41,340 nt of DNA, from assembly GCA_903847975.1 (NCBI GenBank), contig CAINFC010000083.1:1-41340 (forward strand). The letters are read 5' to 3'. This DNA is from an uncultured Acidobacteriota bacterium. Its GTDB lineage: Bacteria > Acidobacteriota > UBA6911 > CAINFC01. The position numbers and the translations under genes are program-made. The notes below the pieces were generated by a model. The model was not told where the DNA came from. It saw only the letters and a program-made list of their open reading frames with translations, and searched no databases. This document shows, one piece after another, positions 17,113 through 32,292 of this stretch (position 1 is the stretch's first letter; every line of letters begins with the position of its first letter).

Positions 17113-17595
17113 TTATTTGGATGGGAGGCGTTCCGGCTTCTGGAATTCGGCACTCATCCGCTCGGGCAGGCGCCAGACGGCGTCTCCGGCACGGTTGGTA
17201 AAGTAGAGGCGGGATTCGGAAGGCGCCAACGTATGGCCGTCGGCCCAGAAAGCATAAAAATCCGGGTGAGCGTGGACCGGGCGGCGCGCATAGGTGTGGT
17301 TGAAGCGGCTGGCGCGGGTAAGCGGCCGGACCCTCACCCAGTGCGCCCCCTGATCGCGGCTGGACCAGAGCACCATCTCCCCGCCGGTGGTCCAGGGCTG
17401 AGGCCCGGGATCCGTCGGGGCGAATGGCCGTCGCTCCCATTCCCGGCCGGGCCAGCGCAGGGTGTACCAGGGGCGCATGCCTTGACGCGGTCCGGATTCC
17501 TTGCCGGATGCGGTCAGGAAAAGAATCACCCGCCGGCCCGCGGCATCGAAGTTCAGATCTTTGACATAGACCAGCTGCCGCTCGGAGAAGGAATC
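17113..17595 (-). pseudogene. Truncated duplicate of the BNR-family gene at 29792
   Basis: This nearly identical copy of the 3' third of the BNR gene (29792-30345) ends in the same ERLPxK residues. It lacks a start and the N-terminal two thirds. It also lacks 69 bases (23 codons) present in the parent between two short GGCG repeats, which removes the parent segment from about ASDHNYDHG to WQIV without shifting the frame. Homology stops at 17595, exactly where dispersed repeat copy D starts. The duplication looks fairly recent, given the few substitutions. It is not expected to make a functional protein. Confidence 0.85.
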
Positions 17596-18124: not shown

Positions 18125-19705
18125 TTACCAGGCGGGACGGCGCTCCCGGTCACCCTTTCGAAAAGGTCCGGCAGCAGGCGCGGGGGTTCGGGGGTATGCC
18201 AGGCAGAGTCCCTGGCATTTCCTCTCGCGGAAGAGCAGGCAGGAGCGGCATGCCGGCCGGCAGGGTTCCCCCAGCCGGGAGCGGATGGGAGGGCCGAAGC
18301 AGGCTCCCAATTCCCGGCGATCGGCGAAATCGAGGAGGGCCCTGCGGGGCGATTCCGTCCCCATGCAGGGAGTGACGCTTCCGTCCGGATGGACCAGCGC
18401 GTTCTGCGTGCCGTCGCTGCGGGCAATGCCGCAGGAATGAAAAAGGTCGTGATGCGGCAGCCAGCGCCTCCAGGACTGGAGGGGAAACAGGCAGAAGGGC
18501 AGCGGCTTGGCCAGGACCAGGCAGATGCCCCGGCTCGTGCATTCCTCAATCAACCCGGAAATCATCGGGCCGAAGCGACGGATGTCCCCGGGGGCCACGT
18601 AGCGGTTCCCGCATCCTTCTGCCGGAAACGGCAGGGCGAAGTGGAGCCGTGACACCCGGAAGGATTCGCAGGGTCGCAAGGCCTCCTCGCCGTAGTTGTC
18701 TTCCAGGGAATGGGCGTTGATCCGCAGTGCGACCGAGATCCCCTTTCCGGCAAGGCCCTCCAGGGTTCGCAGGAAGCGCTTCTTCTGATCCCCCCGGTAC
18801 GTTTCCCCCTCAGCCAGGTGCAGCCCCAGGTGTAGAATGGACTCCGGCTCCAGCGCCTCCAGGATTTTCTTTCCGAACAGTCCGTTGCTGTTGAAGTACA
18901 CTTTCAGGCCCTCTTCCCGGCACTGCCGCAGACAGGAAAGAAAATGAGGATACAACGTGGGCTCCCCTCCCAGGAAGCAGATCCGCCGGCTGCCGTCCCG
19001 CCGCATCCACTGCAGGATGAGCGAAAATATTTCCTCCGGCATGGATTCCCCCGCCCGGTGACGGTTGAAGCAATAGCTGCAGTGCAATTGACAGTCATAG
19101 GTGAGAGCCACCATGAGCTGCCGCGGATACTCGGCAGCCGCCCGGGCCTCGCACCTTTCCGCGAACCGCCGGCGATCCGTCGCCGATGCGCATTCCGCAA
19201 GCGCCGCAAGGATCCGGCTGCCGTTTTCATGAAAACGGCCCAGGGAATCGAGCAGCCTCTCCGTGGCCCCCGGAACGGCAGCCGCCAGCGGCCAGAAGGT
19301 TTTCAACTCCCCGAGAAAGGACTCGTTGGCTTCGGCGAGACAGGCGCCGGGGCCCTCCGCTGCGAAGTGTCGCTCCTCCGGCGGACCCCAGGAGGGCATC
19401 CGGGGCAAAATCAGAAATTCCTGAATGACCCGGTCGGCCGCCTCCCGCACGGCGGCCTCCGGATCGGCCAGCAGCGGAGTCCAATATCGCAGCTGCCAGG
19501 GGTGGCGCAGGGGCGGCAGCCGATTCAGGAAGCGCAGCCGGTCGGCCAGGGGAGCCATGGGCAGGTTCCGGAAAAGGGCCGGATAAAACTCGGCGGGAAC
19601 CTCCCCGGAAACAAACCGGTACAGCAGGAGGCGGTCGTCCGCCCTGCCGGTATCCAGCAGCCGCCGGATTTCACGCCGGGAAGGCTGCCCATGCGGCGGT
19701 GCCAT
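18125..19705 (-). CDS. Radical SAM enzyme with SPASM-like C-terminus and N-terminal extension
   Basis: The 526-residue protein is last in the RiPP-like operon. Residues 1-195 are a helical extension with no domain I recognise. The radical SAM core starts with CxxxCxxC at Cys205, 209 and 212 (CQLHCSYC), which binds the 4Fe-4S cluster that cleaves S-adenosylmethionine, followed by FLGGEPTLYP. The C-terminal part has SPASM-type cysteines (CGIARSDG, TPCMG, CRPACRSC, KCQGLC) for extra clusters, a hallmark of peptide-modifying enzymes. The start at 19705 overlaps the upstream gene by 35 bases and has a GAGG ribosome site. It probably modifies the Cys/Tyr-rich peptide; the reaction is unknown. Confidence 0.87.
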   Translation of the reverse strand: MAPPHGQPSRREIRRLLDTGRADDRLLLYRFVSGEVPAEFYPALFRNLPMAPLADRLRFLNRLPPLRHPWQLRYWTPLLADPEAAVREAADRVIQEFLILPRMPSWGPPEERHFAAEGPGACLAEANESFLGELKTFWPLAAAVPGATERLLDSLGRFHENGSRILAALAECASATDRRRFAERCEARAAAEYPRQLMVALTYDCQLHCSYCFNRHRAGESMPEEIFSLILQWMRRDGSRRICFLGGEPTLYPHFLSCLRQCREEGLKVYFNSNGLFGKKILEALEPESILHLGLHLAEGETYRGDQKKRFLRTLEGLAGKGISVALRINAHSLEDNYGEEALRPCESFRVSRLHFALPFPAEGCGNRYVAPGDIRRFGPMISGLIEECTSRGICLVLAKPLPFCLFPLQSWRRWLPHHDLFHSCGIARSDGTQNALVHPDGSVTPCMGTESPRRALLDFADRRELGACFGPPIRSRLGEPCRPACRSCLLFRERKCQGLCLAYPRTPAPAAGPFRKGDRERRPAW

Positions 19706-20954
19706 GAAACCTCATGTAATTGCGGGCAAAGGATTCGCTTTTGGCGATATCCGCAAAGGAATAAGTGGGATGGGACAGGATCTCGTAGGGGGGCGTGTCC
19801 CGGTACTCCAACCCGAGCTTCCGGGCCTCGCGGCGCAGGGGAGTGCCGTCCAACACACAAAGCCGGTTCAGGAAGATTTTCGCTTCCCCCAGCGATTCCG
19901 CAAAGCAGATCCCTTTCATGAACTCCGCGTAATCGTCTTCCGGCAACCCGTAAATCAGGTACAGGTTGATTCTCCGCCCCAGGGAACGCAGCCGCTCGAA
20001 CCCGGCGGCAAAGGCTTCCCGGTGGAAAGGCCGCCGGATGGCCCGGTTGGCCGCCGGATTGACGGTCTGCAGCCCGACGTCGAAAACCTGGTAGCAGTCG
20101 AACAGCGGCCGGTTGCCGTCCTGAACCCGTTCCGCATCGATCTCCACCGAAACCCGGAAGCAACTTCTGCGCCTTTCCTCCGACAGAATCCGGTGCAGGG
20201 ACGCCAGCCGCTGCGGATCGTTGCCGGCCAGCACGGGATCCAGCAGGTGTACGTAATCATGCCCCTGCAACAGGGCCCAGCGGATTTCGGCCGCCACTCT
20301 CTCCGTGGAAAAAAACCGGGGGCGTCCGGCGCGCAGGGCCTCGAAGCAGAAGGCGCAGTTTCCGGGACACCCGCGGGCATGCTCGATCATCACTCCCAGC
20401 GGGCTTCCCGGCGGAATGGAAACGGCATTCTCCAGGTAGGGCGACGGCAGCTGATCCAGGTTCCCGATTTCGGCGGCCGGCGGGTTGCTGTGCCAGGAAT
20501 CCCCGCACCGGTACTGGATGCCCGGGATATCCTTCAGGGACAGAAAATCGTCTCCCGTCATGGACAGCAGGATCCGGCGGAAGGTTTCCTCTCCTTCCCC
20601 GTCGGCCACGATGTCCAGGAACGGGTACTGCTCCAGGTAGGAGAGGGTGGAGTGGGTGACCTCCTGCCCGCCGAAGAGCAGCCGGCTGGCCGGCAGGAGC
20701 TTCTTCAGTGCCCGGGCCAGGCCCAGCGACTTGGTGATGTTCCAGACATAGCAGGAAAAGGCGATCAGCTCCGGCTGAAGCCGGACCAGGTTGCCGAGGA
20801 TATCGCTGTCGGCGGTCCGCAGGTCGTATTCCGCCGTGAAAATCCGGCACTGGCGCAGCAGAGCTTTGTCCCGGGCGGCATACAGCCGCAGGGAGTGAAT
20901 CGCCAGGTTGTAATATCCCGGGGTGTTGAGAGCCACCAGGACCGCCCGTTTCAT
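19671..20954 (-). CDS. B12-binding-type radical SAM protein (second of two)
   Basis: The 427-residue protein has an N-terminal cobalamin-binding-like region (about 1-130) with LLFGGQEVT and the typical IVADGEGEETF. The radical SAM motif CPGNCAFC (Cys196, 200, 203) follows, then a barrel with VGLQTVNPAANRAIRRPF and LYLIYGLPEDD. Members of this class often methylate unreactive carbons, but some do other chemistry, and the DxHxxG lower-ligand motif is not evident. The start is taken at 20954, where ATGA overlaps the upstream stop and GGGAGG lies nine bases away; an ATG at 20960 is possible. There is a 35-base overlap with the next gene. It is probably part of the peptide-maturing set. Confidence 0.87.
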   Translation of the reverse strand: MKRAVLVALNTPGYYNLAIHSLRLYAARDKALLRQCRIFTAEYDLRTADSDILGNLVRLQPELIAFSCYVWNITKSLGLARALKKLLPASRLLFGGQEVTHSTLSYLEQYPFLDIVADGEGEETFRRILLSMTGDDFLSLKDIPGIQYRCGDSWHSNPPAAEIGNLDQLPSPYLENAVSIPPGSPLGVMIEHARGCPGNCAFCFEALRAGRPRFFSTERVAAEIRWALLQGHDYVHLLDPVLAGNDPQRLASLHRILSEERRRSCFRVSVEIDAERVQDGNRPLFDCYQVFDVGLQTVNPAANRAIRRPFHREAFAAGFERLRSLGRRINLYLIYGLPEDDYAEFMKGICFAESLGEAKIFLNRLCVLDGTPLRREARKLGLEYRDTPPYEILSHPTYSFADIAKSESFARNYMRFHGTAAWAAFPA

Positions 20955-21943
20955 CGGCATGCGCCTCCCGCCGCCTTCCCGGACCGGAGCCCGGCACCGG
21001 CGGACGCCAGTTTATGGGAAACGCAGCCTCCGGGGCACTGCCTCCGGTGCAGAAACCGGCAGCGGCCGCATCGGGGAAAGATCCCCGACGACGCATAGCT
21101 TCCCAGAAACCTGCCGTAGTGATCCATCACTTCGCCGAGGGTGGAGAAGTCGGTCAGCCGGCGATTTTGAATCGACGAGAGCGGGAAGCAGGACCAGGTG
21201 TTGAGGTCGGGATCGATGTCGATGGTCGGACCGCAGGAAAACTTCAGGTCGGCATGGGCCGCGACCAGGCGTCCCATCTCCGCGGTCCGGAACATGCAAG
21301 GCACGAAGCCGCAGTCGAAATTGAGGCGGATATCGTTCCGATCGGCTTCCGCCGCAAAAGCCGCCAGCCTTTTTCCGACGCTCCGGTATTTTTCCGGGGA
21401 AAGGAATTCGTTATCCCCGCCGTGCACCGGCTGGGCAAGGCCGATGCGCACGGCACGGTTGAACCGGAAACGGTCGATCATGCGAAAGAGGAAGGAGAGG
21501 TCGAAGTCCTCCCGGTAGATATTGAAGCCCGGCCAGATATTGGGACCCAGGTTTTCGAAGACCGTCTCCAGCTGCTGCCGCTGGGCCGGAGGCGTATCCC
21601 CCGGCTCGTTGATATTCAGGATCACCGCCAGGTTGTTCCGGAAGATGTACCGGCAGACGGAGGCATCCATCAGCCCGTTGGAAAAGATCCGAACCGTCAT
21701 TCCGCGGGAAAGGGCATGGTCGGCGATTTCCCGGAAACGGGGATGCAGCGTCGGCTCTCCGCCCAGGAGCGAATAAACCTCATGGCCGGACCGCTTCAGG
21801 AAATCGACGACATAGGCCGCGTTTTCCAGGCTGATTTCCTTTTTGGCGGTCCGGCGCCCGGAACCGTTCTTTCGGATCTTTCCTCGCGCGAAGCAATAGG
21901 GACAGGAACGGTTGCAGTAGCCGGTGATCAGCAGGTTCGGCAT
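20951..21943 (-). CDS. Compact radical SAM protein with extra C-terminal cysteines
   Basis: The 330-residue protein puts the radical SAM motif at its very start (CNRSCPYC; Cys10, 14, 17). SLLGGEPTLHP follows, then a C-terminal half rich in cysteine: CGFVPCMF, SCGPTID, SCFPL, CGRCRF and QCPGGC. This resembles SPASM or twitch auxiliary-cluster regions of peptide-modifying enzymes. It starts four bases after the stop of the small PqqD-like gene, a pairing typical of RiPP systems, where PqqD delivers the leader peptide to its partner. The start at 21943 places the cluster motif at the usual distance; longer in-frame extensions run into the PqqD-like gene. Confidence 0.87.
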   Translation of the reverse strand: MPNLLITGYCNRSCPYCFARGKIRKNGSGRRTAKKEISLENAAYVVDFLKRSGHEVYSLLGGEPTLHPRFREIADHALSRGMTVRIFSNGLMDASVCRYIFRNNLAVILNINEPGDTPPAQRQQLETVFENLGPNIWPGFNIYREDFDLSFLFRMIDRFRFNRAVRIGLAQPVHGGDNEFLSPEKYRSVGKRLAAFAAEADRNDIRLNFDCGFVPCMFRTAEMGRLVAAHADLKFSCGPTIDIDPDLNTWSCFPLSSIQNRRLTDFSTLGEVMDHYGRFLGSYASSGIFPRCGRCRFLHRRQCPGGCVSHKLASAGAGLRSGKAAGGACR

Positions 21944-21947
21944 GGAC

Positions 21948-22229
21948 TCACTCGCCCTCTTTTTCCCGGACGATGATCCGCTCGGCTTCCAGCCCGGCCA
22001 GAAAGGCTTCCACATCGCGCTCCGCCCGATCCCGGCTCACGGCGTATTCCCTCATAATGGCCCGGATGGTGTGCTCCATCGGCCTTCCCTGCACCATTCC
22101 CATCCAGACTTTGCCCCCCAGCTCGTTAAACAGGTAGTGGTTTCCGCCGGCCGGATCCAGCACCACGATCCGCCGGTCGAGTTTACGCCAGGAGAGCTGC
22201 GGTTTCAATCCTATCGCCATCGGCTTCAT
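21948..22229 (-). CDS. PqqD-family peptide-recognition protein, 93 residues
   Basis: The sequence (MKPMAIGLKPQLSWRKLD, then IVVLDPAGGNHYLFNELGGKVWMGMVQG and a helical end RDVEAFLAGLEAERII) fits the PqqD fold: three strands and a helix bundle that bind RiPP leader peptides. The length is normal for free-standing PqqD. GAGG lies five bases before the ATG at 22229. It overlaps the end of the upstream B12-type gene by 47 bases and is followed at four bases by a radical SAM gene. In known pathways such a protein binds the precursor leader and presents the core to the enzyme; here the precursor is presumably the peptide encoded at 24414-24779. Confidence 0.82.
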   Translation of the reverse strand: MKPMAIGLKPQLSWRKLDRRIVVLDPAGGNHYLFNELGGKVWMGMVQGRPMEHTIRAIMREYAVSRDRAERDVEAFLAGLEAERIIVREKEGE

Positions 22230-23856
22230 AAGCACCTCTTCCGGACTCCTCTTTCTGATTAAGAAAACGGGCCAGGTCCACGGCAGCCGTTTCCCCGTCT
22301 TCCTCCGCCCCGCCGGGCCATTGCGCCCGGAGGTGCCGCCGGAAAGCGCGCAGGCACCGGTCCAGGGCCCGATCGTCGTAAAAGGGCCGACGGTATTCGT
22401 CCAGGCGGAAGGCCGGTTCCACAAAGTCGTGCAGTTCGGCAAAGAACTTCACCAGGCGCAGCTTCGGATGCCCGATGATAAACCGGACCAGCCATCCGCA
22501 CCGGCAGACCATGGGCAATAGCCGGTAGACCTTTTCCACCCAGGCATAATCGTAGAAAGGATTCCTCACAAAATGAAAATGGGAAAAAAGCTCCGGATCC
22601 TGCCGGATGCGGGAAAGGAGAGCCGGCGACTGGAAGGGCAGGTCCTTGTGGACCAGGAAAGGGCTCGGCTGCAGGCCGGAGGAATGCTTTTCATATGCTT
22701 CCGTTCCGTACTCCGGCTGAAAGGCATTGACCACCAGCCCGACTCCGCGGTAAAAGAGAGCCAGCAGCAGCAGGAATTCCACAGTCTTTTCCAGGTCCTC
22801 GGCGGTTTCCGAAGGATACCCCAGAATAAAGGCAACGGTCGGCGCCATCCCGAGCTGCAGCGCATACTTCAGGATTTTCAGCGCCCGGCCGGGATGGATC
22901 GGCTTGCGAAACTCTTTTTGCATCCGCAGGGAGCGGCTTTCCATTCCGAAGAAGAGATAGCGACAGCCGGCAGAGGCCATTTCCCTCAGCAGCCCCGGAG
23001 TCACTTCATCCAGTCTCGCATCGCAGCCCCAGGCGAAAGAGAGCTGCCGGTCGGAAATTTCCCGGCAGAGATCGCGGACCCATGGGCGGTTCCAGGAAAA
23101 CAGGTCGTGCACGAAATGGACATGCCGTATTCCGGTCTGCTCCAGGGAAGAACCGACCTCCTCCAGGACCCGGCCGACCGATTTCTGCCGGAAGCGGCGG
23201 CCCCAGACTTTCGCCGTGGCGCAATAAGCGCAGCGATGGGGGCATCCCCTCCCTGTCTCGATCGAAAGCCCCATCTGCCGCGCCGCTCGCCGGTAGGCAG
23301 CCAGATCGATCAGGCTGTAATCGGGTCGGGGAGAGCGGTCCAGGTCGTCCATCATCTTCCGCTCGGGGTTGACCTCCACCTCTCCTCCCGCGCCGCGCCA
23401 GCTGAGGCCGGCCACTCCCCGCGGATCGCCGCCCCGAGCGATCAGCTCGCGTAGAGTCTCCTCCCCCTCTCCCCGGCAAACCATGTCGACGCAGGGACAG
23501 CGCTGCAGCAGCAGATGGTGAAGCAGCGTGGCCTGCGGCCCACCCAGCAGGATCGCGGCCCGCGGATGGTCGGCCCGGCAGCGCCCGGCGATTTCCAGCG
23601 CCACGGGCAGGGAAGAGCTGAGGCAGGAAATGCCGATCAGGTCCGGCCTGCTCCGGCCGATGCGCGAGGACGCCGCATCAAAGAAGGAGTCGCACAAGGG
23701 AAAATGCGGATCGTATTTGGTGAGCAGGTTGAAGTCCACAACCTCCGCGACGCTGCCTGTCTCCCTGGTCGCGGCGCCCAGCAGGAGCAGGGCCAGCGGC
23801 AGATCCAGGGTACCAAAGTGCGGATTGACGGGCGGATGGACGAGACATACTTTCAC
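22183..23856 (-). CDS. B12-binding-type radical SAM protein (first of two)
   Basis: The 557-residue protein has an N-terminal cobalamin-binding-like domain (about 1-150: LLGGPQATLLHHLLL and CRGEGEETL). The radical SAM motif CPHRCAYC (Cys205, 209, 212) follows, then AWGCDARLDEVTPGLL, FFGMESRS and FILGYPSETAEDLEKT, all typical of the class. The C-terminal 150 residues resemble the variable tail seen in this group. Translation starts at a GTG (23856) with GGAAGG upstream; no nearby ATG is suitable. It starts 13 bases after the Tat-PqqD gene and overlaps the small PqqD gene at its end. A methylation or other C-H chemistry on the peptide is a fair inference but not shown. Confidence 0.88.
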   Translation of the reverse strand: MKVCLVHPPVNPHFGTLDLPLALLLLGAATRETGSVAEVVDFNLLTKYDPHFPLCDSFFDAASSRIGRSRPDLIGISCLSSSLPVALEIAGRCRADHPRAAILLGGPQATLLHHLLLQRCPCVDMVCRGEGEETLRELIARGGDPRGVAGLSWRGAGGEVEVNPERKMMDDLDRSPRPDYSLIDLAAYRRAARQMGLSIETGRGCPHRCAYCATAKVWGRRFRQKSVGRVLEEVGSSLEQTGIRHVHFVHDLFSWNRPWVRDLCREISDRQLSFAWGCDARLDEVTPGLLREMASAGCRYLFFGMESRSLRMQKEFRKPIHPGRALKILKYALQLGMAPTVAFILGYPSETAEDLEKTVEFLLLLALFYRGVGLVVNAFQPEYGTEAYEKHSSGLQPSPFLVHKDLPFQSPALLSRIRQDPELFSHFHFVRNPFYDYAWVEKVYRLLPMVCRCGWLVRFIIGHPKLRLVKFFAELHDFVEPAFRLDEYRRPFYDDRALDRCLRAFRRHLRAQWPGGAEEDGETAAVDLARFLNQKEESGRGAYEADGDRIETAALLA

Positions 23857-23869
23857 GGCGCCTTCCGGT

Positions 23870-24310
23870 TCAACGAAGCCCGGGCAGGGCTTGGGGGACG
23901 GCCTTTTCCATGGAGATGCGCTGACTGTAACCGGTGAGCTGCAGAAATCCCTGACGCCGCATCCGGGTCAGGAAAAGGTCCACGTCCGCCGCGGCCTCGC
24001 CGGCTTCGAGCCCGTACTCTTCCGCCAGGAGTACCGACAGCTGGTCGGTGCAGGTTTTTCCGTCCAGGCGCCTCCAGAGCAACAGCCCCGTTTCGTTCAG
24101 GCGGATCTGACGGTTTGCGGAGACCAGAATCACCGAGTCTCCGTCGGAAACCTCGCGGATTCCCGCGGCCTTTCGGGGGATGGGAAAATCATCCACCGCC
24201 ACCACCCGGCCGGCCGGCCGGCTCTCCTGGCCCAATCCCGGAAATCCCACGCCGGGCAAAGCGCCCAGGGCCATCCCGAGAGAGGCCCGGATGAAATGTC
24301 TTCTCTGCAT
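23870..24310 (-). CDS. PqqD-like domain behind a predicted Tat signal
   Basis: The 146-residue protein begins MQRRHFIRASLGMALGALP, a good twin-arginine signal (RRHFIRA followed by a hydrophobic, Gly/Ala-rich run). Residues about 50-130 form a PqqD-like domain: GDSVILVSANRQIRLNETG then LLWRRLDGKTCTDQLSVLL and a C-terminal helix with FLTRMRRQGFLQL. PqqD proteins normally work in the cytoplasm, so an exported one is odd. GGAG lies 12-13 bases before the ATG at 24310. In-frame GTG codons near residue 36 could give a cytoplasmic form but lack a ribosome site. It lies 103 bases after the precursor gene, with a hairpin between. Confidence 0.75.
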   Translation of the reverse strand: MQRRHFIRASLGMALGALPGVGFPGLGQESRPAGRVVAVDDFPIPRKAAGIREVSDGDSVILVSANRQIRLNETGLLLWRRLDGKTCTDQLSVLLAEEYGLEAGEAAADVDLFLTRMRRQGFLQLTGYSQRISMEKAVPQALPGLR

Positions 24311-24352
24311 GGCTTTCTCCCGCTCCTTTCCAAAGATGCCTCCCGGCAATAA

Positions 24353-24370
24353 CCGGAAGCCCCCTTCCGG
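24353..24370 (-). terminator. Hairpin downstream of the precursor gene
   Basis: A perfect 7-bp stem (CCGGAAG/CTTCCGG) with a four-base loop lies in the 103-base gap after the precursor stop; a G-U and an A-U pair can extend it. On the minus strand it is followed by TTATTG, not a T-run. A partial terminator or an mRNA-stabilising hairpin that raises precursor levels over the enzymes is more likely than full termination. Confidence 0.45.
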
Positions 24371-24413
24371 CTCCTCCGGCGGCAAGCCTGCGCCGCCGCG
24401 CGGTCCGCCCTTC

Positions 24414-24779
24414 TCAGGAATAGTAGACATAATAAGTCTGATAGTAGGTCTGGTAGTAGGTGTAGTAGCTTCCGGTGACCTGGCAACTGCAGACGTTCCC
24501 CACGCAGGAGCACTCCGCGTTGCAGGAGCAGACCGCATCGCAGGTGCACACTTCGTGGCAGGAGCAGGCCCCCGCGGTTACCGTGTCGCAGGAACAGACG
24601 GCATCGCAGCAGCACTGATTGCTGCCGACCGAAGCTTCCACGGCCTTGCCGGGATCCGGGGGCCATTTCTCGAATCCCGGCGGGTGGTAGGCTTTGATCT
24701 TCTTTCCCTTCCTGATCTCCGGCTTCAGGTCCCCGGCGTCCTCCCGCTGCAGCCGAAAATTGTTCCTGTCCTTTTTCAT
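24414..24779 (-). CDS. Cys- and Tyr-rich RiPP-like precursor peptide, 121 residues
   Basis: Residues 1-55 are charged and cysteine-free (MKKDRNNFRLQREDAGDLK, then KIKAYHPPGFEKWPPDPG) and look like a leader. Residues 56-99 hold 15 cysteines: CCC at 56-58, then C-x-C pairs at 62/64, 72/74, 78/80, 84/86, 90/92 and 97/99, in near-hexapeptide units such as DAVCSC (twice), HEVCTC and NAECSC. The end (104-121) is SYYTYYQTYYQTYYVYYS, five Tyr-Tyr pairs. The start overlaps the upstream radical SAM stop by four bases, and a strong AAGGAG lies at 24787-24792. Radical SAM and PqqD-like neighbours suggest a modified natural product. A metallothionein-like role is possible but fits the context less well. 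No known class is recognised. Confidence 0.88.
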   Translation of the reverse strand: MKKDRNNFRLQREDAGDLKPEIRKGKKIKAYHPPGFEKWPPDPGKAVEASVGSNQCCCDAVCSCDTVTAGACSCHEVCTCDAVCSCNAECSCVGNVCSCQVTGSYYTYYQTYYQTYYVYYS

Positions 24780-26155
24780 GAGCCTTCTCCTTGTGTCGGC
24801 AGCCCCAGCTGCTCCAGCAGCCTGCCCTTGATGATCCCCCGTATGATCTCGCAGCGCCCGGGCACGCGTCCGTCCTCCCGGCCGGACCGGACGGCGGCCT
24901 TGGCGCGGCAGTCCCCGGCGCAGTGATACTTGGCGAAGCAGTTCCGGCACTCGTCCGGCTCCGTGTCGGAAAGCCGGCGCAGGGCCTCGATTTTCTCTGG
25001 ATCCAGAACAAAGCCCTTCCCCGCCACATGGCGTCCGTAGATAAAGCGGTCCGCGCGCCCGTCCGCCCCGGACAGAACCTCGAAGCAGGAGGTCACCTCC
25101 CCGGCGGGGGTCACCGCAAAATTCCGCCAGCCGATTCCGCAGAATGCCTTCTTGAGCTCCGGAAAGCTGCTTCCGGAAAAATGGAGCGGAATTCCACCGG
25201 ACTCCAGGATTTTAGCGGCGCGGAGAAAGCCCTCTACGAAAGGCTCCGGCTCCGGAGCCTCCCATCGGTGCCGCATGGCCCGGGCGGAAGGGAACATGGG
25301 CTCGAGATGAATTGAGCGCGGTCGGAAGCGCTCCTGCACGTGGACCACCATTTCCGGGATCCTTGCCTGGGACTCGCGGGTGACCGTGCTGCGTATGCCG
25401 TACGCTTTGTGGCGGTCATCCCAGTAGTCCAGCGTGGCTTTCACCCGGTGGTAGCTGGGGGCCCCGCTTTTCAGTGGGCGCTGGCGGTTCTGCACCTCCG
25501 GAGGGCCGTCGAAAGAAACGTTCAGGTGGTCGATCCGGTCCGCTACCCACGCCGCGGCCCGGGGGGGCATCACCCCGTTGGTGGAAAGCCCCGTCTGCAG
25601 GCCGATCCGGCGCCGCTCGGCAAGCATTTGGGCATGGTCCGTGAGCCGGACCAGCCGCGCTTTTTTCAGCATGGGCTCACCTCCGCCGTGAAATCCCAGC
25701 TGGACCTGCTTCGCGCCGGCCCGGGCGGCGTTCAGGAAAAGCAGGTCGATGGCCTCCAGGCCCAATTCCACAGGCATGGCCGCTGCACGGTCGCCGCCGT
25801 CGCCGTAGCAGTAAGGACATCCCAGGTTGCAGTCGGAGGTCAAAAACAGGGTCAGCGTGGTCGGCTGGAAAGGCTGCCGGTAGTCCTTATTCTTCTCCTG
25901 CCGGCTCCGGCGCGGAGATCGGTCATCGTCCAGGATTCCCAGCCGCCGGAGCCGCCGCAGCGTCCTCCCGTGAACGGCCCCGTCCACCGGCCTGCCCTCC
26001 TGCAGGTCGACCAGCAGGTTGACCAGACCTTTGCCGCCATATACCACGGCCTTTCGCAGGGGGGCATACACCAGCGAATCCCCGCGGTGGGGGATTTCAA
26101 AAAGCTCCTCTTCCAGCCGGAAGCGGGCGGGCAGGATATCCATCGGCGTTTTCAT
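24776..26155 (-). CDS. Radical SAM/SPASM peptide maturase with N-terminal RRE-like domain
   Basis: In this 459-residue protein, residues 1-78 (ILPARFRLEEELFEIP, then LVYAPLRKAVVYGGKG and RLRRLGILDDD) resemble a PqqD-like recognition element. The radical SAM motif CNLGCPYC (Cys109, 113, 116) is followed by GFHGGGEPMLKK and LSTNGVMPP. The C-terminal SPASM domain has FCGIGW, TSCFEV and CRNCFAKYHCAGDC then RCEII. This build matches enzymes of the anSME, SCIFF and ranthipeptide type, several of which make thioether bonds from cysteine. It lies directly before the Cys-rich peptide with a four-base overlap, so that peptide is the likely substrate. The ATG at 26155 overlaps the upstream FGE-like gene by four bases. 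The actual bond formed is unknown. Confidence 0.9.
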   Translation of the reverse strand: MKTPMDILPARFRLEEELFEIPHRGDSLVYAPLRKAVVYGGKGLVNLLVDLQEGRPVDGAVHGRTLRRLRRLGILDDDRSPRRSRQEKNKDYRQPFQPTTLTLFLTSDCNLGCPYCYGDGGDRAAAMPVELGLEAIDLLFLNAARAGAKQVQLGFHGGGEPMLKKARLVRLTDHAQMLAERRRIGLQTGLSTNGVMPPRAAAWVADRIDHLNVSFDGPPEVQNRQRPLKSGAPSYHRVKATLDYWDDRHKAYGIRSTVTRESQARIPEMVVHVQERFRPRSIHLEPMFPSARAMRHRWEAPEPEPFVEGFLRAAKILESGGIPLHFSGSSFPELKKAFCGIGWRNFAVTPAGEVTSCFEVLSGADGRADRFIYGRHVAGKGFVLDPEKIEALRRLSDTEPDECRNCFAKYHCAGDCRAKAAVRSGREDGRVPGRCEIIRGIIKGRLLEQLGLPTQGEGS

Positions 26156-29100
26156 GGGACGACTCTCACCAGTCGAAGGCCGACATAGCCGCTGCTGTCC
26201 GTGGGGCTGAGCGAACCGCGCCAGGCCGATCGAAGTTCGTAGGGCGAATACGTCCATGACCCGCCCCGCCGCACGCGGTTGGTCCCGGAGGCGGGCCCGG
26301 TGTAGTCCGTCTGCGGCGTTCCAGGATAGGAGGTCGCATAGCGGTCCCAGCAGTGCTCGCTCACGTTGCCGTGCACATCCTTCAGCCCCCAAGGGTTGGC
26401 CGGCTTTTCGCCTGCCGGATGGGTCGTTCCGCCCGCATTGGCGCCGAACCAGGCGACGCTCTCCAGGGCCGGAAGCGTGCCCGCAGCAGAGCTGGTGCAG
26501 TTTGAGCTGGAATACTTCGGCTCGGATACAGAGAACGGTCCTTCGGTAAGAGCCCGAGCAAAGTACTCCCACTCCCCTTCCGTGGGCAGGCGGTAGCCGT
26601 CGGCATCGAAATTACAGTAGATGGTGCCGGTGCTGTAATTGGCGGCATCCACCGGCTGGGTGAAGGAGGCATTGGTATAATAGGCGACCTTCAGTCCCTG
26701 CTGCAGCGACAGGAGATTGGCGAACAGCACCGCTTTGTACCAGGTCAGGAACTGCACCGGATGGGACGGCCCGGACCCGTAGGCCGTATTCGTCGGATCC
26801 GCCACCAGCGTGGGCTGCAGCGCTTTCAGGTCGGCCCACATCTGCCGGGTCACCTCGGTCTGCATAACCGCCAGGTTCCGGGTGATGGCATGCGAAAACG
26901 CCGGTCCTTCCACGCTGAGGCGGCAGGGCTCGGTCGGGGGCGATCCCTGCAGGAAAGAGCCGGCCGGCACGAGCAGCAGCGGTCCGACAATCGAATCGGT
27001 CGTCATGACAACCCCGATGGTAACACTCCGGGTCAGCGATATTCCCCCTTCGGCGGTCAGCGTGTAGGTCGTCGGAACGGATGGCGACACCGACTGGCTT
27101 CCCGTGCAGAGCACCGATCCGATTCCCGGCTCGATGCGGCAAGCCGTGGCACTGCTGACCGCCCAGCTCAGTCGCGCGGCCCCTCCCTTCTGGATCACAG
27201 CCGGGCTGGCGGTAAAGGATTCGATCGTCGAAGCGTTCCGGACCAGCCGGAAGCCCAGATCGCTGCAGCGCAGGCCCGGGTCCAGGCCGGCGCGGGATGC
27301 CAGACGAATGTTGCGCGGAAAATTGCGCCAGGAGCCACCGCGCTTGACCCGCCCCTGTCCCGAGGAAGGACCGCGATAATCGTTGCTTTCCACGGTCGGA
27401 TAGGTGCCGTACCAGTCCCAGGCCCACTCCCAGACGTTCCCCTGAACGTCCGACAGGTTCCAGCCGTTACCTGCCTTCGTCCCGACTTCATGGGTCCCAC
27501 CGCCGCGGTTGGCGCAGAACCAGGCCAGCCCTTCCAGGGCTTTCAGCGCGCCGGCCACGCAGGATCCGCTGCTGCTCTGGCTGTAGGCCGTCACCGAAGC
27601 GGTGAATGGACCGGTCGAGCCGGCCCTCGCCAGGTATTCCCATTCTCCCTCGGTCGGCAGGCGAAAACCGCCCGACTGCCAATCGGTAAAAACCAGGCCG
27701 CTGCCGTAATTACCGGCATCGAGCACCCGGGTAAAAGCTTCATCCTTAAAGTAGACTGGCGCCAGCCCGGCTTCCCCGGACCGCAGGTTGGCAAACAGAA
27801 CAGCCTCCCACCAGGTAACCTGCTGCACCGGAAAATTCGGTCCGGCCCCATAGGATACGATGGACGGGTCGGCCGGCAGCTCCGCCCGCAATTCGCGAAG
27901 CGCCGCCCACATGCCCCGGGTTACTTCCGTTTCCATGGCCAGAAGGTTCCGGCGGAGGACATGGTTGAACTGCGTCTCGCCGGAGAGGCGCCCCGCTTCG
28001 GAACCGGGGCTGCCCTGCTTGAAAGTGCCGGCCGGAAGGAAGCGCATATTGCCCAGAATGGAATCGGCCGCTTTCGGCAAGGTGGTGGTCGTGCTGCTGA
28101 GGGTGCTGGAAGTACTCGAAGTGGTCGTGGAGGGACGAACGGTCGTACTGGTGGAAGGCCGTACGGTGGTGCTGGTGGAGGGGCGAATGGTGGAACTGGT
28201 GGATGTGCTCGGCGGGCCGAGCGTGGTGGAAGGAGCCGGGCCCGCCGAAAGGTCGGTGATGACCGGGATGCTGGCCAGCACGGATACATCCGGATTGAAG
28301 CGGAGCGTTGTGCCGATCACCTGGCTGCCGGCCCGCACGGCGATCATCCCGGCAAATCCCGTAAGATCGACCCCGGGAAACATTTCACCGGCCAGCAGGG
28401 CAATCTGGCGTCGGGATTCCAAAAAATAACTGGGGCTGTACCCGACGGCCTGACCCGCGGAATTATAAAGAGTCATGCCCAGGGCAATCATCCCGGACTC
28501 GGAAGGATTGGCCAACGCCAGGCCCGCCAGCATGCCTTCCCGCTGATCGATCGGCAGCAGAAAATAGTTGGAAGGGATCGCCGGATTGATTCCGGCCTCC
28601 GATCCCTTTTTTCCGGCAGGCCGGCAGGAGTACACCACGGCCCCGCCGATCAGCCCGAGGGAGCTGACCCTTGCCCAGCCTGCGCGGACCTCCGGCGAGA
28701 CCCCGCCGCTCTCCCAGAACAGGCTGCCGTTGGCCGCCAGGGTGAACCGGAACGTGCTGGCGGTGGCCCCATCCAGGGTCAAAGAGAAAGGCGTCCCGTC
28801 CGGTTTGAACAGCTCCATCATTCCGGATACGGCGTAGTCGCTCAAATTCACCAGGGCGAAGGTACTGCGGTATCCGCCTCCGTCAGCCACCTGCGGAAAG
28901 TAGATCACACGGGAACCGGGATTGCTTCCGGTGTCGATGACCGGAATGCTGGCCAGCCGGTTCAGGGCCTCATCAAAACGAAGGGTGGTGGCCGCTACCT
29001 GGCTTCCTCCGGCCTCCACTCTGACCACCCCTTTAAATCCCGCCAGATCCTGTAAGGGAAAGAGCTCCCCGATCAGTCGGGCAAAATGGCCCATGGGCGG

Positions 29101-29706
29101 CAGAGCGCTTGTCGACCGGGCTGTTTGCCTGCCCTCCGTATCCAGCAGGGTGAACGTCAGGGGTACGGTCCGGCTGTTCGGGTTGGCAATCGCCAGCCCG
29201 GATGAAAACCCCGCCCGGGTATCCACCGTCAGCAGAAAGCTCGCCGTCAGCGGGGAGGGATCCAATCCGGCCTCTTCCACGGCTTTTCCGCCGGAAAGGA
29301 ACGAATAGGTTAAAGCTCCGCCGATGGCACCGGTTGCCTTGACGCGGGCCCATCCCACGGTTACCTTGCCGCTCGAACCGGCGCTGCGGAGAAACAGGGA
29401 GGCAAATCCGGGAATCGGATAGGTAAATGAGCTGTCGGTGACCCCGTTCCAGGTGGAAACCAGGGGGGAGCCGTCCGACTGGAAAAACTCCAGGGTAACC
29501 GCGACCTCCGCCGCCAGTGGGTTGACCAGCATGATCTGGCTGGAAAAACCGCCTCCGTCGGCCATCTGGGCAAAATACAGCTCCCTTGTTTCGCCGGTCG
29601 CGACCCTATCGGCGGTTGCCTTTACCCCATGGCGCAAAGCAAGGAGTACCAGGAGTACTGCCAGGATGGCAGAAAACCGGACGAAAAGCTTGTTCGCCGC
29701 AACCAT
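26152..29706 (-). CDS. Large exported protein with two FGE-like domains
   Basis: The 1184-residue protein starts with a signal segment (FSAILAVLLVLLALRHG). Residues about 40-485 hold four related beta-rich repeats (YFAQMADGGGFSSQ, YFPQVADGGGYRST). A Ser/Thr-rich linker follows (about 489-543; TSTTVRPSTS repeated), then an FGE/sulfatase-modifying-factor domain (545-820), an Ig-like segment, and a second FGE-like domain (905-1184). Both FGE-like domains keep EGEWEY, GNVWEW or GNVSEH, and RGGSW, but the paired catalytic cysteines of true formylglycine-generating enzymes are absent after RGGSW. They are therefore probably binding domains or another enzyme type. The stop overlaps the radical SAM start by four bases, making this the first gene of the RiPP-like operon. 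AGGGAGGG precedes the ATG. Confidence 0.85.
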   Translation of the reverse strand: MVAANKLFVRFSAILAVLLVLLALRHGVKATADRVATGETRELYFAQMADGGGFSSQIMLVNPLAAEVAVTLEFFQSDGSPLVSTWNGVTDSSFTYPIPGFASLFLRSAGSSGKVTVGWARVKATGAIGGALTYSFLSGGKAVEEAGLDPSPLTASFLLTVDTRAGFSSGLAIANPNSRTVPLTFTLLDTEGRQTARSTSALPPMGHFARLIGELFPLQDLAGFKGVVRVEAGGSQVAATTLRFDEALNRLASIPVIDTGSNPGSRVIYFPQVADGGGYRSTFALVNLSDYAVSGMMELFKPDGTPFSLTLDGATASTFRFTLAANGSLFWESGGVSPEVRAGWARVSSLGLIGGAVVYSCRPAGKKGSEAGINPAIPSNYFLLPIDQREGMLAGLALANPSESGMIALGMTLYNSAGQAVGYSPSYFLESRRQIALLAGEMFPGVDLTGFAGMIAVRAGSQVIGTTLRFNPDVSVLASIPVITDLSAGPAPSTTLGPPSTSTSSTIRPSTSTTVRPSTSTTVRPSTTTSSTSSTLSSTTTTLPKAADSILGNMRFLPAGTFKQGSPGSEAGRLSGETQFNHVLRRNLLAMETEVTRGMWAALRELRAELPADPSIVSYGAGPNFPVQQVTWWEAVLFANLRSGEAGLAPVYFKDEAFTRVLDAGNYGSGLVFTDWQSGGFRLPTEGEWEYLARAGSTGPFTASVTAYSQSSSGSCVAGALKALEGLAWFCANRGGGTHEVGTKAGNGWNLSDVQGNVWEWAWDWYGTYPTVESNDYRGPSSGQGRVKRGGSWRNFPRNIRLASRAGLDPGLRCSDLGFRLVRNASTIESFTASPAVIQKGGAARLSWAVSSATACRIEPGIGSVLCTGSQSVSPSVPTTYTLTAEGGISLTRSVTIGVVMTTDSIVGPLLLVPAGSFLQGSPPTEPCRLSVEGPAFSHAITRNLAVMQTEVTRQMWADLKALQPTLVADPTNTAYGSGPSHPVQFLTWYKAVLFANLLSLQQGLKVAYYTNASFTQPVDAANYSTGTIYCNFDADGYRLPTEGEWEYFARALTEGPFSVSEPKYSSSNCTSSAAGTLPALESVAWFGANAGGTTHPAGEKPANPWGLKDVHGNVSEHCWDRYATSYPGTPQTDYTGPASGTNRVRRGGSWTYSPYELRSAWRGSLSPTDSSGYVGLRLVRVVP

Positions 29707-29791: not shown

Positions 29792-31171
29792 TTATTTCAA
29801 CGGGAGGCGTTCCGGCTTCTGGAATTCGGCACTCATCCGCTCGGGCAGGCGCCAGACGCCATCTCCGGCCCGGTTGGTAAAGTAGAGGCGGGATTCGGAA
29901 GGCGCCAGCGTATCGCCGTCGGCCCAGAAAGCGTAAAAATCCGGGTGAGCGTGGACCGGCCGGCGCGCATAGGTGTGGTTGAAGCGGCTGCCGCGGGTGA
30001 GCGGCCGGACCCTCCCCCAGTGCGCCCCCTGATCGCGGCTGGACCAGAGCACCATCTCCCCGCCGGTGGTCCAGGGCTGAGGCCCGGGGTCCGTTGGGGC
30101 GACGATCTGCCAGAGTCCGTCTTCTTCGATGTAAAGCGAGCCGTGGTCATAGTTGTGGTCCGACGCGGCGAATGGCCGGCGCTCCCATTCCCGGCCGGTC
30201 CAGCGCAGGGTGTACCAGGGGCGCATGCCGTGACGCGGTCCGGATTCATAGCCGGATGCGGTCAGGAAAAGAATCACCGGCCGGCCCGCGGCATCGAAGT
30301 TCAGATCCTTGAGATAGACCAGCTGCCGCCCGGAGAAGGAATCGTAGACCCGGGCCGGGTTGGAGGGGCTGGCGAGCGGCAGCGACAGCGTCTCCCCTTG
30401 GATCGTCTTCCAGGTCTTCCCCTGGTCGGATGTCTCCAGGTAGTAGATGTTGGAGCGCTGGTTCAGTCCGACCGGATTGGGGTGATAATCGAAAACAGAT
30501 GCCAGGCGCGAGCCGCATCGCCAGGTGATCTGGTAGTCCCCCATTTCGATGTGGGCCAGCGGCTGCGGTTCGCCCCAGCGCACTCCGTCCTCGCTGAGAG
30601 CCCAGAACAGCCCGCGCCCCGTGCCGTACAGAGTGTGCAGGAAAAGAAACCCCCTGCCCGGCACCCACCAGGGGTGCGGGTAGGAAAAGTTTGTCTCCCG
30701 GATCCGGTCGAAGGCCTCCACCGAGTAAGGCTGTCGGCTGCGGTGAATAAAGGAGGGGCGGGCGGTTCCATGGGAGGCGGAAAAAATCCAGACGAACCCG
30801 TCGTCGTCCAGCATAATGGTCGGGTTGTCGTGGGCATCGTCGGTCTTTTTGTTCAGCAGGATCGTCGGGCGCGGGACCTGCCCGGTGGCATGATCGTAAT
30901 AGCTGACCATGTGCAGCAGCTCGTTTTTCTCCCGGGAGCGCCCCCCGTAGCAGAAGAAGGTCTTGCCGGCCTTGGCCGCGTAAAAGGCAAACGGCAGCAT
31001 CTGCTGCGGGTAGGTGGCAAAGCCGCCGCTGTACTTGTACCGGTAGGCGTCCTCCGAGGGCTGGTTGTAATACCAGATGCCCCGGTAGCCGTCGTCCCGC
31101 GCGGGCGGCGGTGCTCCGTGCGCGCCGCCGCCGGGAAAGAGCAGCAGCAGCCAGACGAGGGCCGGTATCAT
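29792..31171 (-). CDS. Secreted BNR-repeat family protein
   Basis: The 459-residue protein has a signal peptide (MIPALVWLLLLFPGGGAHG). The body matches the BNR_4 type: GYRGIWYYNQPSEDAYRYKYSGG, DDAHDNPTIMLDDDGFVW, WWVPGRGFLFLHTLYG, YYLETSDQGKTWKTI, and a Asp-box-like WSSRDQGAHW near the end. These proteins form beta-propellers and are common near polysaccharide-degrading genes in Acidobacteriota and Planctomycetes; some are lyases, but activity cannot be inferred here. The start lies 12 bases after the aldo/keto reductase stop, so the two are co-transcribed. A truncated near-identical copy lies at 17113-17595. The RiPP-like operon begins downstream with its own promoter. Confidence 0.85.
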   Translation of the reverse strand: MIPALVWLLLLFPGGGAHGAPPPARDDGYRGIWYYNQPSEDAYRYKYSGGFATYPQQMLPFAFYAAKAGKTFFCYGGRSREKNELLHMVSYYDHATGQVPRPTILLNKKTDDAHDNPTIMLDDDGFVWIFSASHGTARPSFIHRSRQPYSVEAFDRIRETNFSYPHPWWVPGRGFLFLHTLYGTGRGLFWALSEDGVRWGEPQPLAHIEMGDYQITWRCGSRLASVFDYHPNPVGLNQRSNIYYLETSDQGKTWKTIQGETLSLPLASPSNPARVYDSFSGRQLVYLKDLNFDAAGRPVILFLTASGYESGPRHGMRPWYTLRWTGREWERRPFAASDHNYDHGSLYIEEDGLWQIVAPTDPGPQPWTTGGEMVLWSSRDQGAHWGRVRPLTRGSRFNHTYARRPVHAHPDFYAFWADGDTLAPSESRLYFTNRAGDGVWRLPERMSAEFQKPERLPLK

Positions 31172-31182
31172 CGGGGGTTTCC

Positions 31183-32292
31183 TCAGCGCCTTCCCTTGCG
31201 CCCGTCCTGCTTCATCTCGTCAAACCGCTCCAGGATCGGCAGCCGCTGGGTACACTCCTCTTCGCAGCGCCGGCATCGGGTGCAGGTCTCCAGCAGGGCG
31301 GGCAGATCGGAAATCCCCCAGTGGTATTTCAGGTGCTCCTGCGAGGCGGCCGCCGAGGAGAGCATGCGCACGTTGTAGGTATCCATCAACCGGACTACGG
31401 GTATCCCCGCGGGGCAGTCGCGGCAGTAGCCGCAGCGGGTGCAGAAGTCGGCGCCCAGGCCGGAAACCTTATCCCTCCAGGCCAGCCTCTCCTCCTCGCC
31501 GAGCGGCCGGAGGCGGTCCATGGCTTCGACCGCGGTGTCGACATCTTTCCGGTTGCGGAAGCCGACCAGCGCGGTGCTGACTCCGGGGATGGAGAGGTTG
31601 AACTGCAGGCCCACGTCCACCAGCGTGGGCGCCTGCGGGCTCCGCAGCAGGGCAAAGCGCCCCGGATGGGCGGTCAGCAGCCCTCCGCCGAGGGTGTTCA
31701 TGGTCACCACCGCCAGGCCGCGCCGGGCCGCTTCGCGGATGCCCGGAGCGCGCAGGTCGTAATTGAGGATCGAGGCGCCGATCAGCATGCCGGCAAACAG
31801 GCCGTCCGCCTCCTCCAGCATCCGCACGGTATGCTCGAACTCCAGGTGCGTGGATACGCTGATGTGGCGGACGAGGCCTTCTTCTTTCAATTTGCGGAAC
31901 TCCTCGATCGCCCCGCGCGCTTTGCGCCTCGAAAACTCGTCCGGCTGGATCAGGCACCAGACATGGTAAAAATCGATGGCCTCCACCTGCAGGCGCTGGA
32001 GGGAGCGCTCGCACTGCTGGCGGATCACCGAGGGGTTTTCGGCGCCCGACTTGGTGGAAATATAAAAGGGCCGCCCGCTTTTTTTCATCTCCCGGACCGC
32101 CGTGCCGACAATTTCCTCGCTTCGGTCTTCGCAGTAGTAGGGAGCGGTGTCGAAGTAGGTGATCCCCTTCTGAAAGGCATGGTGGACCACCTCGGCCATT
32201 TCCGCGATTTTCCGCGGCGCCTCAAAACGCATGGCCCCGAAGCCGAGCGCGGATACTTCGATTCCCGTGGATCCGAAAGACCGATACAACAT
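31183..32292 (-). CDS. Aldo/keto reductase with C-terminal 4Fe-4S ferredoxin-like domain
   Basis: The 369-residue protein has an AKR barrel over residues 1-270 with GFGAMRFE, ITYFDTAPYYCEDRSEE (catalytic Asp and Tyr), STKSG and GVSTALVGFRN. The C-terminal part adds two cysteine clusters, CTRCGYCRDCP and CTRCRRCEEEC, each able to bind a 4Fe-4S cluster. Such fused reductases act on sugars or other carbonyl compounds; the natural substrate is not clear. GGGAG lies about nine bases before the ATG. It sits between a PQQ-propeller gene and a BNR gene, and spacing suggests one transcript. Confidence 0.9.
   Translation of the reverse strand: MLYRSFGSTGIEVSALGFGAMRFEAPRKIAEMAEVVHHAFQKGITYFDTAPYYCEDRSEEIVGTAVREMKKSGRPFYISTKSGAENPSVIRQQCERSLQRLQVEAIDFYHVWCLIQPDEFSRRKARGAIEEFRKLKEEGLVRHISVSTHLEFEHTVRMLEEADGLFAGMLIGASILNYDLRAPGIREAARRGLAVVTMNTLGGGLLTAHPGRFALLRSPQAPTLVDVGLQFNLSIPGVSTALVGFRNRKDVDTAVEAMDRLRPLGEEERLAWRDKVSGLGADFCTRCGYCRDCPAGIPVVRLMDTYNVRMLSSAAASQEHLKYHWGISDLPALLETCTRCRRCEEECTQRLPILERFDEMKQDGRKGRR

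Follow-up and report, generated by a model that had tools for sequence, protein, structure and literature searches.

Radical S-adenosylmethionine (rSAM) enzymes such as SuiB, anSME, SkfB and PqqE modify the side chains of peptides. SuiB and PqqE join an aromatic side chain, and relatives of CteB and PapB form non-alpha cysteine thioethers. For the joining of an aromatic side chain, PqqE has been described in the same paper as NxxcA, in which Cys23 is linked to Asn20 (PMC8326336); PapB accepts Cys-Xn-Asp substrates with n = 0-6 (PMC9413430), and ApyD methylates tyrosine at C-beta (PMC10635010). The system described here is a nine-gene operon on contig CAINFC010000083.1 of an uncultured Acidobacteriota bacterium (GCA_903847975.1). 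The stretch analysed, called the window, is this one entire contig of 41,340 nucleotides from a genome of 8.13 Mb. The operon runs on the minus strand from 29706 to 18125 in the order FGE-like gene, H, G, F, E, D, C, B, A. By analogy with these enzymes, it would work like a ranthipeptide pathway joined to a tyrosine-modifying one, resembling rather than clearly belonging to either. It probably makes a heavily modified peptide from the precursor G through a pathway of the kind that yields ribosomally synthesised and post-translationally modified peptides (RiPPs), as an earlier note on this DNA had proposed with the same 121-residue peptide as substrate.

G (24414-24779) is a peptide of 121 residues with 15 Cys and 11 Tyr, in agreement with the Cys/Tyr-rich peptide first noticed there. 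Its ATG overlaps the stop codon of H by four bases (ATGA), downstream of a GGAGAAGG ribosome site. The sequence reads MKKDRNNFRLQREDAGDLKPEIRKGKKIKAYHPPGFEKWPPDPGKAVEASVGSNQ, then CCCDAVCSCDTVTAGACSCHEVCTCDAVCSCNAECSCVGNVCSCQV, then TGSYYTYYQTYYQTYYVYYS, and comprises a leader with the motif KPEIRK (residues 19-24), a Cys block (residues 56-99) and the Tyr tail YYTYYQTYYQTYYVYYS; the last 71 residues hold the 15 Cys and 10 of the 11 Tyr. The core consists of seven CxC units followed by five YY pairs. Shuffled versions of G have on average 2.9 CxC units and 1.3 YY pairs, with maxima of 9 and 6; these maxima exceed the observed numbers, so that within G alone it is mainly the composition that stands out. 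The recurrence of the CxC unit in some 40 proteins of relatives carries more weight than the shuffles. G matches no model of Pfam or NCBIfam, and the precursor search by its sequence gave only one weak match, which pointed to the WD40 tail proteins described below.

The leader, which has a rare motif, ties G to the C/D-type precursors beyond composition. Among 1.13 million residues of open reading frames (ORFs), KPEI[KR]K is found three times, and G, the precursor of L060/L080 and that of L103 (L numbers denote related loci) account for these occurrences. The L060/L080 precursor ends in ...SLFSCTYYRASYLYNYYYYYYYYYY and the L103 precursor in ...GGGYYH, and each of the three lies near an rSAM enzyme of the C family. 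Short peptides with a Y.KP[ET][IV] leader and a Tyr end are found in L060, L103 and L083; the Y.KPEI leader of L060 and L103 resembles the lasso motif YxxPxL.

Two hallmarks of a RiPP pathway are present: a gene-encoded, leader-bearing precursor adjoins its maturases, and D and F are proteins of the RiPP recognition element (RRE)/PqqD type for which leader binding is predicted. Family assignments were tested with Pfam and the cut-offs of NCBIfam release 20. D (21948-22229, 93 aa; PF05402 1.8e-12) is a free-standing, lasso B1-like RRE and the predicted leader binder, judged from its sequence; it scores 39.9 and 39.3 bits with the lasso PqqD models, whose cut-offs are 70 and 80. F (23870-24310, 146 aa; Pfam PqqD 9.8e-14) is a probable second RRE or chaperone, and genes of its type are present in the type 1 loci described below. 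Its N terminus (MQRRHFIRASLGMALGALPG) is twin-arginine-like, with a TAT_signal score of 0.046, below the cut-off. Such starts (RRHFIR, RRAFFR, RRRFLR) open PqqD-like proteins of the F type in the window (23870-24310) and in L024, L027 and L061, an odd trait for a cytoplasmic leader binder. The Pfam PqqD domain in D and F agrees with the two PqqD-like proteins of the earlier note.

The Cys block has a candidate maturase in its direct neighbour. H (24776-26155, 459 aa) is a SPASM rSAM protein with the motif CNLGCPYC (Radical_SAM 1.7e-11), an RRE-like N-terminal region and ten invariant Cys, as in SPASM enzymes. It is nearest to CteB both by sequence (5WGG, 3.9e-21) and by predicted fold (5WHY, 1.1e-22), and is the predicted thioether maturase of the block. 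Its scores stay below the cut-offs of the SCIFF maturase model TIGR03974 (91.8 bits, cut-off 425), the PapB model NF047865 (93 bits, cut-off 340) and, as a weak match, the QhpD model TIGR03906 (83.9 bits, cut-off 453). The generic SPASM domain model TIGR04085 alone reaches its cut-off in the operon, where no peptide-maturase or precursor model of NCBIfam does so, which bears out the earlier remark that the enzyme number and the precursor fit no class that could be named. The resemblance to the SCIFF or ranthipeptide systems (CteB with CteA, PapB with freyrasin) lies in the SPASM enzyme with its N-terminal RRE-like part and, for PapB, in a substrate with many regularly spaced Cys near Asp or Asn. 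Unlike those systems, the window has CxC units of the form [VI]C[TS]C[DN]x[VI] rather than SCIFF or CxxxD spacing, four more rSAM enzymes and a Tyr tail, and its relatives carry the motif at the tail of large exported proteins. The units also offer the [DN]xxC register of the NxxcA ranthipeptide of Streptococcus orisratti, which in contrast has a single bridge, no CxC repeats and a different cluster.

The candidate enzyme for the Tyr tail is C (20951-21943, 330 aa), a marker rSAM enzyme with conserved alignment columns and 239 relatives. C is SPASM-like with 7-8 further conserved Cys and 32-42% identity to family members, and its predicted model (predicted local distance difference test, pLDDT, 87.7) has a fold closest to SuiB, anSME and SkfB, with PqqE lower. 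It is predicted to act on the Tyr/aromatic C terminus. PqqA/PqqD/PqqE and SuiA/SuiB, with their C-C cross-linking SPASM enzymes, share this fold, an aromatic target end and a separate PqqD-like RRE; they differ in that there is no membership at the sequence level, the Tyr targets are repeated and several other rSAM enzymes stand in the window.

C marks an unnamed rSAM family that is present in many phyla. The first related loci came from Acidobacteriota genomes searched with H and C. Three of them carry, beside the enzymes, a WD40 protein with a twin-arginine translocation (Tat) signal, a tail of C[TS]C[DN]xVC[TS]C repeats and the end HYWHPN or HYWYPT. A C profile search of the GTDB species genomes then gave 239 places, and 80 loci from many phyla were read; three locus types can be told apart. 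Type 1 loci hold H, F, H2, D, C and K together with Cys-tail substrates, one or more per locus; these are Tat-signal proteins, often WD40, with [VI]C[TS]C[DN]x[VI] repeats and the end YWYPN. In the tail proteins, PE[IV]Y precedes an RRxF twin-arginine motif, and the total span is exactly 20 residues in 29 of 42. K consists of two rSAM halves, the second like HutW. In L024 (14575-17298) and similar cases it is a fusion of about 910 aa, PapB-like in one part and HutW/HemN-like in the other, with two radical SAM cores per chain, and in Chloroflexi loci such as L129 it is split into two genes.

Type 2 loci have a Tyr-repeat peptide with a Tat leader near C, often directly upstream, and a second rSAM enzyme nearest to the dynobactin/darobactin maturase models. 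Extreme Tyr-repeat peptides with 24-30 Tyr per 40 residues, for example YYNYYSYYYYYNYYSYSGYYNYYDYY, are found in L100 (8954-9412), L107 (7376-8035), L118 (6351-6949) and L123 (13053-13304). They have a twin-arginine-like leader and lie near genes for C-family and second rSAM enzymes; NCBIfam gives a weak Tat-signal match for that of L100 and nothing else. Type 3 loci hold D, an HPr-kinase-like gene, A, B and C, some with a short Tyr-ended peptide; in those examined, a lasso B2-like protein, asparagine synthetase or nucleotidyltransferase is encoded as well. In the lasso-like clusters L072, L073, L076 and L093, with rSAM genes of the A, B and C types, no precursor was recognised.

Most relatives carry the motif as the tail of a large protein, and the operon is therefore one hybrid member of a broader family rather than an isolated oddity. 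Two points of the earlier note change in this light. A small peptide remains the likely substrate in the window, but the enzymes are not specific to small peptides, the motif being mostly the tail of large Tat-exported proteins. The number of enzymes, which had seemed unusual, is normal among type 1 relatives, with four to five rSAM enzymes per locus.

The distribution of the motifs among these loci assigns the enzymes to their targets. Among the C loci, a Cys-tail protein was found in 28 of the 37 with H or H2 and in 3 of the 45 without (Fisher 5e-11), and Tyr-repeat peptides in 17 of the 45 and none of the 37 (1e-5); these values are weakened by thresholds set while the loci were being explored and by the phylogenetic relatedness of the loci. 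A 29th Cys-tail protein among the C loci with H or H2 was found on inspection, and of the three exceptions without them, one (L077) is an artefact, a Tyr repeat read in antisense, and the other two (L136, L146) carry K. The tail-profile search is a cleaner test: of 297 Acidobacteriota genomes, seven have the tail, all among the ten with an H homologue (hypergeometric 3e-12), and in six of these seven the tail and the best H match share a contig. In 23 of 28 loci, no more than 200 bases separate H from the substrate. Eleven loci that carry H, H2 or K, or truncated remnants of them, showed no tail in the stretch read; four of these genomes have a tail elsewhere, and one of the loci, L088, has a diverged tail next to H. 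In the H-only Acidobacteriota loci (L021, L025, L026, L022, L023) the Cys motif is present without an adjoining C and without an aromatic end or YWYPN; these substrates end in CTCDQICTCVPIV or are followed by another domain. The counts, the tail search and the H-only loci together indicate that H and the Cys motif belong together and that C comes with the aromatic end. In two of the H-only loci, L022 (11356-13146) and L023 (9718-12798), WD40-like proteins have a CTCNxVCTCIPV motif and then a C-terminal domain (LPIQTWNYKW...IGPMAQDF). This domain resembles the self-cleaving S74 chaperone domain, and autocleavage may generate the mature C terminus of these proteins.

The same data bear on the idea that G is a metallothionein-like metal-binding or redox Cys protein whose block stays unmodified, the rSAM enzymes acting on the Tyr tail alone or elsewhere. 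CxC pairs are typical metal ligands, and 15 Cys in 44 residues would suit such a protein. The motif nevertheless recurs with the CteB-like H, also in the H-only loci where no other maturase is seen, and D or N after the second Cys is conserved at a position where metal binding does not need it; we consider an unmodified block quite unlikely. CxC is followed by D or N in 133 of 205 cases, so both the [DN]xxC and the CxxD registers are on offer to a thioether maturase.

The layout of the operon matches the earlier description. The interval from 29706 to 18125 consists of nine adjacent minus-strand ORFs without internal stops and with third-position G+C contents of 0.74-0.81. With starts chosen to fit relatives and the upstream sequence (H 26155, D 22229, C 21943, B 20954), the reported junctions of -4, -4, +103, +13, -47, +4, -4 and -35 bases are exactly reproduced. 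Pfam finds Radical_SAM in A, B, C, E and H and a B12-binding domain in B and E, in keeping with the five rSAM proteins, two of them cobalamin-type, read from the letters. By gene content the window is a hybrid: it shares H, F, D and C with type 1 loci and A, B, C and D with type 3 loci, and has E in addition.

This hybrid nature raises the alternative of two unrelated modules, in which FGE-like gene, H, G and F form a Cys-peptide unit, next to which E, D, C, B and A would serve a second pathway, lasso-like or not peptide-based at all, with a precursor of its own that is absent or encoded elsewhere. A, B, C and D do occur together without H in lasso-like clusters (L072, L073, L076), a gap of 103 bases precedes F, and the type 1 partners H2 and K are missing. 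On the other side, G shares the KPEI leader with C-type precursors and has a Tyr tail, two features tied to the second module; the spacing from F to A is +13 to -47 bases; and C accompanies H in most type 1 loci. Two separate pathways are thus unlikely, and a single pathway acting on G is preferred.

The remaining enzymes of that pathway are two candidate methyltransferases and A. E (22183-23856, 557 aa; PF02310 and PF04055), a predicted C-methyltransferase, has the aminopyruvatide enzyme ApyD as its closest NCBIfam model (NF050148, 250.5 bits, cut-off 750). The two systems also share a Tyr-rich substrate end, but the window is without the MNIO, P450 and ApyS partners. E gave no match as a query against the genome contigs; B12-binding rSAM enzymes being common, it is a poor marker on its own. 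B (19671-20954, 427 aa; PF02310, PF04055) is another predicted methyltransferase, with 111.9 bits for KedN5 (cut-off 700). Its homologues in L072, L073, L076 and L093 score 246-263 bits, and relatives occur in lasso-like clusters alongside A, C and D. A (18125-19705, 526 aa; CQLHCSYC, PF04055 3.1e-12) has an N-terminal extension of about 190 residues and a Cys-rich C-terminal part; homologues stand with D, B and C in L072, L073 and L076, and with C in L103.

Other named systems resemble the operon in part. Lasso clusters (B1/PqqD, B2, asparagine synthetase, HPr-kinase-like) share the B1-like D, and homologues of A, B, C and D are found in clusters with Transglut_core3, Asn_synthase, NTP_transf_5 and HPr-kinase-like genes; by contrast, no B2 or asparagine synthetase is among the window proteins scanned, and G is without a lasso-type core. 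The GeoRSP and SynChlorMet cassettes of NCBIfam likewise combine several SPASM enzymes with a PqqD-like protein, but the window scores far below their cut-offs (for example TIGR04303 30.6/400, TIGR04248 15.7/100). The operon belongs to none of the SCIFF, PapB, ApyD, lasso, GeoRSP and SynChlorMet groups, as either a cut-off is missed or partners are absent. It does fit a definition of the C-family multi-rSAM systems as a C-family SPASM enzyme near a Cys- or Tyr-repeat substrate, and G has both repeats.

The first gene of the operon encodes an FGE-like surface protein of 1184 aa (26152-29706; Pfam PF03781 5.8e-70) and is coupled to H through an ATGA overlap. The protein has a signal-like N terminus, a repeated domain, a Ser/Thr linker and two FGE-sulfatase domains, which agrees with the earlier reading. 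It has 41 matching places in its own genome, where the repeat domain and the FGE domain match separately, and is a member of a large, expanded paralogous family; the coupling to H may consequently be incidental. As a pathway enzyme it was downgraded, not rejected, and its place in the pathway is uncertain. This bears on whether the product is the precursor of a small redox cofactor (compare PqqA and pyrroloquinoline quinone, PQQ, or the QhpC crosslinks in amine dehydrogenase), to be excised and then to serve another enzyme, for which the FGE-like protein could be a candidate. The PqqD-like proteins, the fold of C near PqqE, the weak match of H to QhpD and the coupling of the FGE-like gene to H would all suit a cofactor. 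We nevertheless regard one as very unlikely: a dehydrogenase, a protease and a PQQ-type late gene are all missing from the operon, the FGE-like protein is one of many paralogues, and a polymeric product agrees better with the seven repeat units of G and with the Tyr repeats of relatives, which reach 30 Tyr per 40 residues.

We infer the chemistry, product and function of the operon by analogy. D, perhaps together with F and the RRE-like N terminus of H, would bind the KPEIRK leader. H, of the CteB/PapB type, would then join Cys sulphurs to nearby Asp or Asn side chains in the [VI]C[TS]C[DN]x[VI]C units and so form non-alpha thioethers. C, from the fold group of SuiB, PqqE and anSME, would act on the tail Tyr; the likeliest reaction is C-C or C-O cross-linking, in which A could be its partner. 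The ApyD-like E and B, both cobalamin rSAM enzymes, would add methyl groups, the Tyr beta-carbon being a plausible site for E. Release or export of the product would probably fall to general machinery. In the least certain step, the product may be a redox- or metal-active, or a rigid extracellular, element rather than an antibiotic. Thioether, methyl and Tyr chemistry had been named as the likely kinds, and the distant maturase relatives are consistent with all three.

Several observations weigh against the modified-peptide pathway as a whole. Within the operon, no protease or exporter gene is found, as the earlier note had already remarked. All the rSAM enzymes score far below the cut-offs of the named families, so the reaction types proposed rest on distant relatives. 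G is without a Tat signal, unlike most relatives, and its exact layout is not repeated among the loci seen. The H2 and K enzymes of most type 1 loci are missing from the window, and no relative with its full gene set or precursor layout was found among compared genomes that include no close kin. The earlier note held that homologous operons which keep the enzymes without such a peptide would speak against it: most relatives do keep Cys- or Tyr-repeat substrates, but in some C-family loci no such substrate is seen. C could act elsewhere than on Tyr, as there are C loci (for example L070, L074, L075 and L090) in which no aromatic substrate was recognised.

The surroundings of the operon carry possible signs of rearrangement. 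Direct repeats bracket it at 17113-17595 and 29792-30343, with 300 nt at 95% and 185 nt at 94% and about 70 bases missing between the two blocks. A duplicated 3' fragment of a BNR-repeat gene (29792-31171) lies at the downstream end. The flanking repeats point to insertion or duplication of the 12 kb stretch in one piece. Beyond, an aldo-keto reductase with 4Fe-4S motifs (31183-32292) adjoins a protein of 1278 aa that combines a PQQ-type beta-propeller with a malectin domain (32330-36166).

The family is apparently undescribed, as judged from NCBIfam release 20, Pfam and the open-access literature. No NCBIfam model covers the precursors, and in the open-access literature no paper was found on rSAM enzymes with WD40 proteins, on Tyr-rich RiPPs with rSAM enzymes, or on the motifs. 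The operon and its relatives may, as a tentative proposal to which we give somewhat less than even chances, form a new class: a cross-phylum family in which several rSAM enzymes turn CxC and Tyr/YWYPN tails, mostly on Tat-exported beta-propeller or other large proteins, into cross-linked redox-active, metal-binding or structural extracellular elements, with the window as a rare free peptide that has both blocks. If the pathway proposed for the operon is right, a large unnamed set of rSAM maturation systems would be defined, and a substrate motif for H (the CxC units) and a proposed one for C (the aromatic ends) would have been read from gene content alone. The family would be a source of new candidate enzymes that form thioethers, cross-link Tyr or methylate Tyr, and the minimal loci of H plus substrate (L021, L025, L026) and the small Tyr-peptide loci would be simple systems for direct study. 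It would also suggest that radical chemistry in the style of RiPP pathways is often applied to the tails of exported proteins.

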